Source of the DNA: Verrucomicrobiota bacterium
Lineage (GTDB): Bacteria; Verrucomicrobiota; Verrucomicrobiia; Limisphaerales; JADLHS01
Direction of reading: 5' to 3'
Length of the DNA stretch: 48,038 bases
Assembly (NCBI GenBank): GCA_025350905.1
Contig: JANXWY010000065.1
Location: 1-48,038, forward strand
Of this stretch, positions 7,695 to 37,232 are shown piece by piece. The first letter of the stretch is position 1. Each line of letters starts with the position of its first letter. The notes beneath the pieces were generated by a model. The model was not told the DNA's origin. It did not search any database and worked only from the letters and a program-made list of their open reading frames with translations. The translations under genes were made by a program, and so were the position numbers.

Positions 7695-8475
7695 CGCCGG
7701 ACCCTAAACAAATCTCGCGCGCGATTCAAGCAATCGCCGAGGGCGCACTCTGACACCACCTCCTACAAAATTCGTTCCACCCAACCCCTCACCCAACCTT
7801 CGGCCACCCTTGAACCGCCCGCCCGTAGCGCAGGTTGGCAACCTGCTGTATCGCCGACTGGTAGTCGGCTTGGCAGTCGTACCCTCGCGTCGCTGCGGAT
7901 TGCCAATCCGCGACACCGCAGACTGCCAGTCTGCGCTACGGTTCCGGTGCGCCAATCGCGGCTTGTCGCGGGCCGTGGAATTTCTCCCCATCAGATCGGG
8001 AGAGAGTCCATTAGCCGTCCGGGATCACGAATTGTATCGCTGAACTGGACCCTCCTCTCCTTCCGAAGGAGAGGAGCGGGTCTCCGCAGGTCGGGCGAGA
8101 CGAGGTTCATTTGTAGGCACGGAGCGAGGGGAACAGTTCGATCCCGGGACCCCGATTCAATTCGAGAGCAATGTGCGGATGAGCCCAACTTGATCTGCAA
8201 GGGGGCGGCTTGACACTGCCCCGCTCGACATTTGCTTGCGGAGCGCCGATCTCCGATCCGGCGCGTTGCTGGGCGATCCACAATACCGCCGGGTCGGAGA
8301 CCGGCGCTTCGGGGGCAGTGTCAGGATGCGCCCCATCTGCAAGTGCCACCGGGAAAACTCTTGCACGGCCCGAACGGGTCAACTAAAGTTTTTGCCGCGC
8401 TCTGCGACCGCGCGCGATTTTCCGGCCTCGGCCTTGATCCCGACGGGAGTGAAACATCGGCGGCCAAGCATTTGT
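7695..8475. repeat. Repeat-rich intergenic region
   Basis: No convincing gene in 781 bases. It holds four short palindromes in a row: 7831-7845 (CAGGTTGGCAACCTG), 7853-7869 (GCCGACTGGTAGTCGGC), 7895-7911 (GCGGATTGCCAATCCGC) and 7918-7934 (GCAGACTGCCAGTCTGC). All centre on TGCCA, TGGCA or TGGTA. A perfect 25-base palindrome with 12-base arms lies at 8052-8076. A larger foldback at 8211-8333 is listed separately. Open frames here read through the repeats on both strands and are not credible genes. Confidence 0.8.
8211..8333. repeat. Composite palindromic element, same family as one inside mutY
   Basis: Inner arms at 8242-8265 and 8285-8308 pair with three mismatches. Outer arms TGACACTGCC (8211-8220) and GGCAGTGTCA (from 8314) also pair. 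The inner left arm plus the following TTGC matches 32981-33007 inside mutY at about 24 of 27 positions, and the right arm matches 33026-33048 at 22 of 23. Confidence 0.75.
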
Positions 8476-14850: not shown

Positions 14851-16819
14851 GTGCGTTGGGCATGGTGATGAGCTAGAGGGTGAAAGACCCTTGTGGGGCC
14901 TTCGGAAGGCAACCACGAGTCAAAGGCAACTGCATGAGTCGCGAGGCCGTGTGGGGAGGAAGCCGGATGACGAAACGGAGTCCTGAACGAAAGTGAAGCC
15001 TCGTAAGGCAGGTCGGGCGGGTGAGTGTGCCTGAGAACATGATACCCAGTTTTCCGAGCAGCCCGACACGTAGTGAGGACAGGATGACGCGAAAGTTCAT
15101 CACCTTACCCCAAGAGATCTCTGCCGATCCTTGGTGACAAGGTAACGCTGACTGAAGGCAACGACAGCGGCGTGAAGTTGGCAGAGAAGTCGGATGGTCT
15201 CGTAGTAGCGACGAAGCGGCTAATCACCGTGGAGCCAAGGGGACCATGAAGATGAGAACATGAAACACGAACAACTGAACTGGGTGTTCGCCGAAGCCCC
15301 ACAAGGGAGCGGCGACAAGGAGAGGCCCGATTTATGGGTGTCGCCTTCGTCGCGGCTGCATAAAGTCCAGGTCAAGGAGTTCGAGCGTTTCGTGACCGGA
15401 GCGACTGACGCAAGTCAGTTGATGGAAGCAGCGGCCTCGGAGTTCAACCTCTGGGTGTCGTTGTATAAAGTGGTTCAGAACAAGGGAGCGCCCGGCGTGG
15501 ACGGTGTGAGCGTGGAAACGGTTTTAGCGCAGAGCAAAGAACTGTTGCCGCGATTGCGCCGCCAACTGCTGGAGGGAAGATACCGTCCCGGCGACATCCG
15601 GCGGGTTTGGATACCCAAGCCCGGCGGTGGCGAGCGAGGATTGGGGATTCCCAAGGTGATAGACCGGTGGGTGCAACAAGCGGTTCTGCAAGTGCTGGAA
15701 CCGATCTTCGAGCCGACCTTTCACGACAGCAGCCACGGTTTCCGCCGTGGACGCGGGGCGCAGACCGCGATAGCGCAAGCGCGCAAACATCTGGCAAGCG
15801 GCCACGCAACCATTGTGGACATTGATCTGGCAAAGTTCTTCGACCGGGTCAATCACCAGCGGTTGCTGGCACGTCTGGCCCAACGGGTGAAGGACAAGCG
15901 TGTCCTTGAACTCATTGGCCGGATGCTCAAAGCCAGAGTGGTGCTGCCGGAGGGAACGCGCGTGAACACCGAAGAGGGGACGCCGCAAGGCGGGCCGCTC
16001 TCGCCGTTGCTATCGAACATTGTTCTGGACGAACTGGATTGGGAGTTGCACCGGCGGGGGCTGCGGTTTGTGCGGTATGCTGACGATGCCAACCTCTTTG
16101 TGGGCAGTCGGAGTGCCGGCCAACGGGTGATGACCAGCGTGCAACGCTTTCTCGAAAAGCGGCTGCGGCTGTTCATCAACCCGGAAAAGAGCGCGGTCAG
16201 GCGACCGCAGGAAGTTCACTTCCTTGGGTTCCGGTTTTGCCGGAACAAGGAGGAGCAGTGGACGATCCATCTCTCGCATAAGACGGTGGAGCGAGTGGAA
16301 ACCCGGTTGAAGGAGATGACTCCGCGCAACTGGGGGCAATCGCTGCTGGCCTGTATCGCGGAACTCAATCGCTACATCAAGGGTTGGGTGGCCTACTACC
16401 GGCAGTGCAGCGAGGAAGCGGTGCGCAACTGGAAGAAGATGGACGCGCATGTCCGGCGACGGCTGCGCGCCATCGTGATCCGCCAGAAGAAACGCCCGCG
16501 CCACCTCTACCGCCATCTGCTCAGTCGGGACGTGTCTGCCCGTAAGGCGGCCATGACCGCGTGGAGCAGTCGCGGGGTTTGGCATCGCAGTGCCCGTTCA
16601 GGAATGCACCTTGGGTATCGTATTGACTGGTTCACGGAACATCTGGTTTCGCTGACCACCGAATGGTATCGACACAACCTCCCCAAACTAATCCAACCGG
16701 TCATGGAGCCGCAGCTTGCGCTGTTTGGTTCCGAGATAACATCCAAAGAGCCGGATGCGTGACACGCCAGTCCGGTTCTGAGAGAGGGGCGGTCGTGCAA
16801 ACGACCGTCCCTACTCGAC
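14851..16819 (+). mobile_element. Group II intron
   Basis: The 5' end GTGCG fits the GUGYG consensus, followed by a domain I-like structured region of about 400 bases. It encodes a reverse transcriptase/maturase. Domain V is visible at about 16749-16779 (GAGCCGGATGCG ... AGTCCGGTTC), and domain VI is a hairpin GGGGCGGTCGT/ACGACCGTCCC, ending CTACTCGAC. Total 1969 bases. It lies in an attC-like target, as known for group IIC-attC introns, but in the same orientation as the cassette genes. No homing endonuclease domain. Confidence 0.8.
15260..16762 (+). CDS. ltrA: Group II intron reverse transcriptase/maturase
   Basis: Copies the spliced intron RNA into DNA at new sites and helps splicing. 500 residues. 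The reverse transcriptase domain runs from about 65 to 320: NKGAPGVDG, GIPKVIDRWVQQAVLQVLEP, SHGFRRGRG, DIDLAKFFDRVNH, TPQGGPLSPLLSNIVLDELD, and the catalytic YADD at 273-276. The maturase X domain follows, with RYIKGWVAYYR. No HNH endonuclease is present, as in bacterial classes C, D and E. The reading frame ends EPDA, and its stop TGA lies inside the domain V sequence, which is unusual because intron ORFs normally stop in domain IV. ATG 15260 is preceded by AAGATGAGAAC, a weak ribosome site. Confidence 0.9.
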   Translation: MKHEQLNWVFAEAPQGSGDKERPDLWVSPSSRLHKVQVKEFERFVTGATDASQLMEAAASEFNLWVSLYKVVQNKGAPGVDGVSVETVLAQSKELLPRLRRQLLEGRYRPGDIRRVWIPKPGGGERGLGIPKVIDRWVQQAVLQVLEPIFEPTFHDSSHGFRRGRGAQTAIAQARKHLASGHATIVDIDLAKFFDRVNHQRLLARLAQRVKDKRVLELIGRMLKARVVLPEGTRVNTEEGTPQGGPLSPLLSNIVLDELDWELHRRGLRFVRYADDANLFVGSRSAGQRVMTSVQRFLEKRLRLFINPEKSAVRRPQEVHFLGFRFCRNKEEQWTIHLSHKTVERVETRLKEMTPRNWGQSLLACIAELNRYIKGWVAYYRQCSEEAVRNWKKMDAHVRRRLRAIVIRQKKRPRHLYRHLLSRDVSARKAAMTAWSSRGVWHRSARSGMHLGYRIDWFTEHLVSLTTEWYRHNLPKLIQPVMEPQLALFGSEITSKEPDA

Positions 16820-32870: not shown

Positions 32871-34151
32871 TCACCGCGCCGATTTGGAATTTGGCCTTCC
32901 GAGGTGGTTCAAGATTTTCTTGTGGGCGCTGGTGAAGGCGAGTTGGTGGAGTTGTTTGGCTGTCAGCCAGCGACCTCGGACCGCCGGTCTCCGACCCGGC
33001 GCGTTGCGGGCCGGGTTATTCTTTCGCGCCGGGTCGGAGACCGGCGCTCTGCGGCCCGGATTCGCCAGTTCCGCGCGGTAGGCGTCGAGGGTGATGCGGT
33101 AGCGGGTGATGGAGTGCTTGATGGTGCAAAGCGATTGGGCGGAGGCGAGGTGAAACTCGTTACCTGGGAGCGCCGGCAGCCGGCCGGCAAGTTGGTTTGC
33201 TTTCACTCCCGAAACAGGCCGGCCCATTGCCGGCGTTCCCAGGATTTCCACGTTTGGAAACTCCCAGAGGTGCGCGTTGACCACGCCGGCGGGGCGCTGG
33301 CGGACGAGGAATTTGCCGGCGCGCTCAACGACAAACGCGATGAAGCGTCGGGCGGTGGCGGCGTTGCGCTGGCCGAGGTTGGGGAGTCGTTCCTGTATAT
33401 TTTGTTTTCGCGCGCTGCAGAGTGATTGCACCGGGCAGACGGCGCAGTGGGGTGAGCGCGGCGTGCAAACCAGCGCGCCAAGTTCCATCAGGGATTGGTT
33501 GAGGTGGGAGCACGAATCCGTACTGGTAGCAGCCGACGTAAGGTGGCTCTGGCTCTTTCGGATTATAGCATGAGCCTCCTTACGTCGGCCGCTCCGAGCG
33601 GAATCCAGGCGGGCCGCGCGCGTCACACATGCCTCGGCGAGTTGCCAGAGATGCGCATTGGTTTGTTTTTCGCGCGGGTTGGTGGTGATGCCGAAGAGGC
33701 GGGTCAACACGCGGATGACATTGCCGTCGAGAATGGGGGTGGGTTGATTGAAAGCGATGCTGGCAATCGCGCCGGCAGTGTAGCGGCCTATGCCAGGGAG
33801 CGCGAGCAGGTCGCCGAATTGTTCGGGGAATTTGCCGTCGTGCTGCGTGAGGATTTGTTGCGCGGCCCTTTGCAGATTGCGAACGCGCGTGTAGTAGCCG
33901 AGGCCTTCCCAAAGTTTGTGGATTTTGTCGGCATGGGCTTTGGCCAAAGCTTCAATGGTGGGCAACTCGCGCATCCAGCGTTCCCAATAGGGGATGACGG
34001 TTTTGACCTGCGTTTGCTGGAGCATGATTTCCGACACCCAGATGGCGTAGGGATTGCGCGTGCGCCGCCACGGGAGGTCGCGGGCATTGGTGGCGAACCA
34101 CGCAAGCAACTTTGAAACGATGCCGTTGATTTTGCGATGATGCGATGTCAC
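32871..34151 (-). CDS. mutY: A/G-specific adenine glycosylase MutY with three palindromic insertions
   Basis: Removes adenine mispaired with 8-oxoguanine. I took the GTG at 34151; the frame continues to a GTG at 34184, and the core starts near INGIVSKLLAWF. Core motifs: WVSEIMLQQTQVKTVIPYW with the catalytic Glu, LWEGLGYYTRVRNL, LPGIGRYTAGAIASIAF and ILDGNVIRVLTRLFG with the catalytic Asp. The 4Fe-4S cysteines are in LVCTPRSPHC and AVCPVQSLC (C-x6-C-x2-C-x5-C). The NUDIX-like MutT domain is at the C-terminus. The protein is about 90 residues longer than usual because three palindromes lie in frame: about 33505-33612 (arms 33528-33549/33571-33593), 33163-33243, and about 32976-33062 (arms 32981-33003/33025-33047). 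Confidence 0.9.
   Translation of the reverse strand: MTSHHRKINGIVSKLLAWFATNARDLPWRRTRNPYAIWVSEIMLQQTQVKTVIPYWERWMRELPTIEALAKAHADKIHKLWEGLGYYTRVRNLQRAAQQILTQHDGKFPEQFGDLLALPGIGRYTAGAIASIAFNQPTPILDGNVIRVLTRLFGITTNPREKQTNAHLWQLAEACVTRAARLDSARSGRRKEAHAIIRKSQSHLTSAATSTDSCSHLNQSLMELGALVCTPRSPHCAVCPVQSLCSARKQNIQERLPNLGQRNAATARRFIAFVVERAGKFLVRQRPAGVVNAHLWEFPNVEILGTPAMGRPVSGVKANQLAGRLPALPGNEFHLASAQSLCTIKHSITRYRITLDAYRAELANPGRRAPVSDPARKNNPARNAPGRRPAVRGRWLTAKQLHQLAFTSAHKKILNHLGRPNSKSAR
32981..33047. repeat. Palindromic element inside mutY, third insertion
   Basis: Arms of 23 bases pair at 22 positions around a 21-base centre. It adds about 29 residues (PGRRAPVSDPARKNNPARNA) just before GRWLTAKQ in the C-terminal domain. 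Same family as the intergenic element at 8211-8333. Confidence 0.85.
33163..33243. repeat. Palindromic element inside mutY, second insertion
   Basis: 81 bases, exactly 27 codons. Ends CCTGGGAGCGCCGGC and GCCGGCGTTCCCAGG pair with one mismatch. It adds GTPAMGRPVSGVKANQLAGR-type sequence to the linker after the glycosylase domain. Confidence 0.82.
33528..33593. repeat. Palindromic element inside mutY, first insertion
   Basis: Arms AGCAGCCGACGTAAGGTGGC and its inverted copy pair at 20 of 22 positions. It adds about 36 residues (RSGRRKEAHAIIRKSQSHLT and on) between CVTRAA and LNQSLMELGALVC, a loop next to the Fe-S cluster in MutY. Confidence 0.82.
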
Positions 34152-34554
34152 ACAACACGGAATACCGGTAATAACCTCCCACACGCAAGGCCAGACCCTT
34201 TCCTGTTCTAACCGGCACCCCTTTCGTCAGAAACGACAGGATCGCTTACGTCGGACCATCCGGCCCAGGTTCGATTTTGAGAGAACCGGCTGGTCTTTTG
34301 GATTACGTGGCTGCGGCAGCGTGCCAGAATACAAGGGCGCTGTGATTTCGGATTAGCTGAGAAACCACGAAGGCTGGCTGGCTTAAAGCACAACAAAGCC
34401 ATGGGCCTTGGTTAAGAAGGGCGGGCAAATCCCGAGATTTACAGCCAGGATGCTCTTTGCCATGATGGCATTAGTGCGCTTGGTCTGGGCGTCAGGACTT
34501 GCTCCAAAACCAAATGTTGCGGGTTCGACTTCTCCCCGGCACACCACTTCAGTT
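34152..34554. other. Divergent intergenic region
   Basis: About 400 bases between the mutY start (leftward) and the serpin start (rightward). Promoters for both must lie here, but I see no clear -35/-10 pair. The frame of the serpin is open to 34408. The small minus-strand frame 34208-34402 has no family look. Confidence 0.4.
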
Positions 34555-36916: not shown

Positions 36917-37232
36917 ATCGTTTCAAGCGTTTTGAATTCTCAAAACTTTGCGGACGGTGGCCGGATGCCAATTCTGCCCGTTGACAAAGTTGTAACCGCG
37001 AAATACGCCAGATACGCGAAAGGAAAACGGCCCCGACTTTTCTTCCGGCTTTCGCGTATTTCGTGTAGTTCGCGGTTTGAATCAGCAAGCAAAACCAAGC
37101 CCGGCTTGTTGGCAGAGGAATGAACGGCCGGGGAATAAAACCGGAAAACCATTCTACCGTTGCGGTCAGAATAATGGGGTCAAACTGATGGCGGCATTAT
37201 TCTGACCCCATCATTCTGACCTTTTCCCCCGG
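36917..37232. repeat. Intergenic region with two inverted repeats
   Basis: First repeat: arms 36994-37022 and 37049-37078, built on AACCGCGAA and TACGCGAAAG. Second: arms 37164-37182 and 37203-37221, GGTCAGAATAATGGGGTCA and its inverted copy (18 of 19), of the kind linked to REP-type transposases and related to the ends of the element at 11429-11696. No gene. Confidence 0.7.

Follow-up and report, generated by a model that had tools for sequence, protein, structure and literature searches.

In-gene REPs and palindromes, in repair genes among others, are already known from Opitutus terrae and Rickettsia. The GTAG-REPs of O. terrae, which belongs to the Verrucomicrobia, have a short stem with complementary changes and form dimers arranged head-head 20-100 bp apart; the genome contains RAYT genes, REP copies within ORFs encode 20-30 aa, and repair genes are among the targets, both uvrA genes with two insertions (PMC3733652). 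REPINs are inverted REP doublets that form one hairpin, are associated with RAYTs, have a spacer less conserved than the arms and have been described as spread randomly through extragenic space (PMC3116915). The palindromic elements of Rickettsia, as PMC10969869 relates from Ogata et al., are ~150 bp long and comprise several families, each with a conserved peptide, that are inserted in-frame into metabolic genes unrelated to one another. The find described here, three palindromes within the mutY gene of a Verrucomicrobiota bacterium, is a strong new case of this known phenomenon with a higher genic share. In a partial coverage of the literature we found nothing on in-gene palindromes in Pedosphaera or its relatives beyond Opitutus. 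We consider it very likely that the mutY palindromes are REP/REPIN-type dimers mobilised by RAYTs and tolerated in loops of the protein.

The window, i.e. the whole stretch of 48,038 nt that was analysed, contains the following features:

32871..34184, minus strand: mutY, A/G-specific adenine glycosylase (NCBIfam and Pfam matches)
33526..33595 (core), no strand assigned: P1, predicted GTAG-tagged REP head-head dimer of family F1, half-units 33526-33549 (+) and 33572-33595 (-) with a spacer of 22 nt, mutY reading RSGRRKEAHAIIRKSQSHLTSAAT
33163..33243, no strand assigned: P2, predicted 81-bp REP dimer of family F2 (CCTGGGAGCGCCGGC...), half-units 33166-33188 and 33218-33240, mutY reading LGTPAMGRPVSGVKANQLAGRLPALP
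32977..33051 (core), no strand assigned: P3, predicted REP dimer of family F3 (CGGAGCGCCGGTCTCCGACCCGGC), half-units 32977-33000 and 33028-33051, mutY reading RRAPVSDPARKNNPARNAPGRRPAVR
8239..8311, no strand assigned: a further F3 dimer, intergenic, with a conserved outer context ending ggggcagtgtca

The three inverted repeats reported by the first-pass annotation are present, with slightly wider cores for P1 (33526-33595 against 33528-33593) and P3 (32977-33051 against 32981-33047), and the second does measure exactly 81 bases if the CCT...AGG ends are counted (33163-33243). Their placement, one before the Fe-S domain and two C-terminal, agrees with the domain positions: P1 falls in the linker that precedes the Fe-S cluster, and the NUDIX-like C-terminal domain contains P2 and P3. 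As RNA, P1, P2 and P3 fold with minimum free energies of −46.6, −53.2 and −56.7 kcal/mol (z of −8.0, −6.0 and −7.7; 0 of 200 shuffles folded equally well). A strict palindrome scan of 1.42 Mb of the genome, which missed P2 because of its imperfect arms, returned 82 palindromes as opposed to 0 in a locally shuffled copy, and chance is thus no explanation.

A search of the genome found the palindromes in multiple copies elsewhere, often within genes. Each consists of two hairpin units of ~24 nt in inverted orientation; the P1 half-unit occurs 174 times (94+80, at ≤3 mismatches), that of P3 occurs 69 times (34+35), and the reversed controls gave 0 in both cases. The P2 family is rarer. At least three sequence types had been claimed, but P2 and P3 share the outer end GGAGCGCCGG, which points to two superfamilies, with P2 and P3 as probable subfamilies of one. 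Nor are the palindromes this lineage's own, as had been proposed, since the F1 unit was found in 39 and the F3 unit in 29 of the 57 genomes of the order that were searched. In a single genus the number of F1 half-units per genome varies between 1 and 174, which speaks for recent spread. In Rfam no match reached the threshold; those below it were mainly to microRNA hairpins, as is usual for any long hairpin. The context gacactgcc...ggcagtgtca was seen around intergenic F3 dimers (window 8239-8311, L162, L166, L172, L174, L181) and is missing from the in-gene F3 copies, as if a larger composite element existed.

Of the 59 F1 elements in the 1.42-Mb sample, 41 are inverted pairs with GTAG outside and 18 are singles. 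The terminal GTAG stands beside a stem-loop (consensus GTAGCAGCCGACGTNAGGAGGCTC from 82 arms). Mutual information within the unit is highest for the pair 12-17 (CG 74 and GC 16 of 112), and pairs 9-20, 6-23 and 8-21 are also among the top six; these covarying positions indicate a hairpin stem behind the GTAG tag. The unit variant GTAGCAGCCGACGTGAGTCGGCTC folds to a 7-bp hairpin, and the loop, GACGTNAGGA, contains an apparent tandem G-A mismatch. P1 would accordingly be read as a REPIN-like head-head dimer of GTAG-REPs. F1 resembles the O. terrae REPs (PMC3733652) in its GTAG tag, covarying stem, head-head dimers, in-gene copies, a repair gene as target and the presence of RAYTs in the genome, the likeness being one of description. 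In contrast to O. terrae, the majority of the F1 dimers here lie in genes, and a single gene holds three dimers, each from a different family or subfamily. Further differences from the known GTAG-REPs are the F1 loop GACGTNAGGA and the GGAG that replaces GTAG in F2 and F3. Judging from sequence, the elements are best placed with the REP/REPIN repeats, F1 fitting the GTAG-REPs and F2 the RAYT-associated REPINs.

The genome has 16 matches to Y1 transposases. Five RAYT-type genes, on C187, C206, C364, C377 and C143, are each flanked by palindromes of their own, and the one on contig C187 (L129 1027-1872) has F2 palindromes on both sides (L129 846-970 and 1811-1923). The likeness to REPINs covers the hairpin-forming inverted doublet, arms better conserved than the spacer and, for F2, the neighbourhood of a RAYT. 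A RAYT from a genome of the same genus (G002, L268) has F3-related GGAGCGCCGATCT palindromes on its flanks, a situation not found in the present genome (G000). The nearest relatives of the RAYTs come from Verrucomicrobia/Limisphaerales assemblies, which would place the organism with the Verrucomicrobia. A REPtron, a RAYT with the same repeat on its flanks, is the usual, though not a required, companion of GTAG-REPs; here no F1-flanked RAYT was found among the 16 Y1 loci of this genome, the Y1 loci of its relatives and 80 RAYT loci from public genomes, which counts against the RAYT/REP reading. Mobilisation by RAYTs appears supported for F2 and suggested for F3, and for F1 we only infer it. The C187 RAYT ORF itself holds an in-frame F2 palindrome (LGAPASLPAS...GRDAGAPS), an internal insert that is mostly gap in its relatives.

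The explanation that we favour sees the palindromes as non-autonomous mobile repeats, each made of two tagged hairpins of ~24 nt in inverted order, which Y1/HUH transposases of RAYT type would copy around the genome. REP dimers would insert widely, copies that break the frame or the fold being lost, and would have reached mutY in separate events. The survivors under purifying selection should be those that are 3n long, stop-free in frame and located in a surface loop. Each palindrome would be read through as a disordered insert of 24-27 aa in a still-selected MutY, which would be the passive host of three inert peptides. From the open frame we infer that the inserts are translated, and presumably they are neutral passengers.

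The distribution of the copies bears on these points. With genes called by our own hexamer model (coding fraction 0.83), the 41 F1 pairs divide into 25 within called genes, 12 intergenic and 4 partial ones, in a 1.42-Mb sample part of which was picked for holding copies; for the F2/F3 pairs the numbers are 16, 13 and 1 of 30. On contigs sampled regardless of copies (766 kb), 8 F1 pairs were found in genes, 3 between genes and 1 partial. The elements work like REPINs and differ from them in this location, and the find matters since REP dimers, usually described as extragenic, are here frequent inside core genes and missing from those sites in close relatives. Among in-gene F1 pairs, 20 of 25 have a frame-keeping core length of class 1 mod 3 (binomial p 2e-6 vs 1/3), compared with 5 of 12 intergenic pairs (Fisher p 0.03). 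Lengths of 70, 73, 94 or 97 account for 20 of the 25 in-gene cores and are almost absent from intergenic pairs. One frame, encoding SSRREEA...QSLLTSAAT and avoiding the GTAG and inner TGA stops, is shared by 18 of the 25. The long spacers of in-gene F1 pairs (46-49 nt; L161, L167, L118, L184, L176) were seen to be made up for the most part of TTTCGGA, CCGCACT and CTCAAC, short units in tandem; a 7-mer in three copies alters the length by 21 and leaves the frame intact.

A plain frame filter does not account well for the in-gene and intergenic F1 length sets, which differ more than it predicts, n being small. One possibility, which we regard as doubtful, is that F1 is a REPIN lineage habitually resident in coding sequence, whose coding-compatible copies may be those that spread. 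It is with similar hesitation that we relate the stop-free frame and the discrete 3n lengths (core 70/73/94/97) kept by F1 to such a habit. If this were true, F1 would provide housekeeping proteins with a stream of ready-made inserts of disordered peptide, and the intergenic copies of other lengths would form a separate pool. The rate, the length filter and the structural sites of tolerated insertions are directly measurable in this genome.

The carriers, housekeeping proteins, include ArgJ, PrmC, ValRS, HrpB, Mfd, RecQ, HsdM, an AcrB-type permease, DUF1015, an aminotransferase and others, and the proteins keep their domains on either side of the insert. Relative to solved homologues, the net extra length is ~22 aa in PrmC, 19-26 aa in ArgJ and ~26 aa in ValRS. 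RecQ was dropped as an example of an empty site, the loops of its closest relatives being similar in length. ValRS (L228 9730-12981) and HrpB (L183 3421-6141) were seen to contain, besides the F1 dimer, a second palindrome family, GGGCAGGCGTCTCGCCTGC; mutY is thus not alone in holding several families. Several palindrome families in frame within unrelated genes, with a conserved peptide for each, recall the Rickettsia elements, in a different phylum, and the comparison drawn in the first-pass annotation holds for behaviour; by sequence the palindromes are not RPEs, as no RPE model turned up among the NCBIfam matches of MutY at E ≤ 1. We know of no RAYT link for the Rickettsia palindromic elements.

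MutY orthologues for alignment were taken from the search of the 57 genomes, and the relatives lack these residues at the three sites. Neither observation that would have spoken against the first-pass interpretation was made: the residues are no ordinary MutY sequence of relatives, and the palindromes are not confined to mutY. P3 adds ~22 aa absent from all aligned relatives, and the P1 linker exceeds those of L031, L034, L030 and L037 by ~25 aa. The P2 site measures 38 aa as compared with a native loop of 19-25 aa in palindrome-free relatives, a net gain of just 13-19 aa from an element of 27 aa. P2 probably replaced part of the native loop and is not a pure addition, so that the original picture of three insertions interrupting MutY stands for P1 and P3 and has to be modified for P2. 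The argJ gene with F1 (L154 7531-7624) presents a similar case: it is 57 nt longer than its orthologues in G004 and G001, of the same genus (90 and 89% protein identity), while the element with one flanking base per side amounts to 72 nt, and ~15 nt of native sequence are missing. Net gains below the element length (57 vs ~72 nt in argJ, 13-19 vs 27 aa at P2) argue against simple insertion. The shortfall could reflect either small target losses on insertion or later shortening of the loop.

Other MutY proteins carry other palindromes at the same places. In G007, G009 and G010, which are other genera of the same family, a palindrome GTAGGGCGCGTCACTCC... occupies the P2 site, and in G021, from another family, the P1 linker holds an F1-type element. 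G051 carries palindromes at both places, the one at the P2 site being the weaker. G001, of the same genus, has its F1 copy elsewhere, in a loop at aa 105-129 of the stop-to-stop frame, and an unrelated palindrome occupies its P1 linker. These palindromes were called on 16-nt arms, and reliable calls have ≥14 matches or a family match (G021, 13/16); weaker ones also turn up by chance in conserved parts of MutY. The simplest reading is that the P1 and P2 loops tolerate insertion rather than attract it. MutY represents a natural experiment in which the same two loops, filled by different palindromes across genera, mark insertion-tolerant sites, and it makes it possible to test whether new protein segments are supplied by mobile DNA.

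The recurrent use of these two loops could also be taken to mean that the inserts are functional and kept by selection, either as mRNA hairpins regulating translation or stability of mutY or as loops adding to protein function. Hairpins of −47 to −57 kcal/mol would be suited to the first role, and an action of REPs on mRNA has been proposed (PMC3733652). We nevertheless find this improbable: the inserts are lineage-specific, their family varies among relatives, most MutY proteins lack them, and the elements also reside in functionally unrelated genes. Moreover, the positions in MutY are low-confidence loops, the AlphaFold mean pLDDT being ~50-75 over the three inserts and mostly >85 in the flanking blocks.

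Three insertions in a single gene and the replacement of native residues at P2 might suggest that mutY is decaying, disrupted by the palindromes, and that its open frame is accidental. The state of the gene makes this very unlikely. The motifs were said to be intact in a single frame of more than 400 codons, which is borne out: 437 codons are open from the first GTG (the start chosen by coding score gives 412 aa, and the hexamer gene call spans 32871-34109). The product scores 313 bits against the NCBIfam MutY equivalog TIGR01084 (cut-off 286.5) and has the Pfam domains HhH-GPD, EndIII_4Fe-2S and NUDIX_4. In an alignment of 29 sequences the catalytic and Fe-S residues E52, Y135, D153, C240, C247 and C250 vary little or not at all, and C256 hardly varies. 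Leaving out the inserts, codon positions 1, 2 and 3 diverge from L010 by 0.16, 0.11 and 0.45, values close to those for five further relatives; the divergence at third positions is thus about three to four times that at second ones, a pattern which indicates purifying selection. The genome has no second intact mutY, the best other match scoring only 24.9 bits. Removal of the palindromes after transcription or their skipping by the ribosome, such that the protein never contained them, is equally hard to credit in spite of the very stable hairpins, since frame-keeping lengths and stop-free frames would be needless in a segment that is removed, and RPE-1 proteins of R. conorii are, according to PMC3733652 citing its ref. 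49, expressed in vivo.

Two other features of the window were noticed. A short palindrome at 37165-37220 (GTCAGAATAATGGGGTC...) does not belong to the families studied, and a 500-aa reverse-transcriptase-like ORF at 15260-16762 resembles, by eye, a group II intron maturase.
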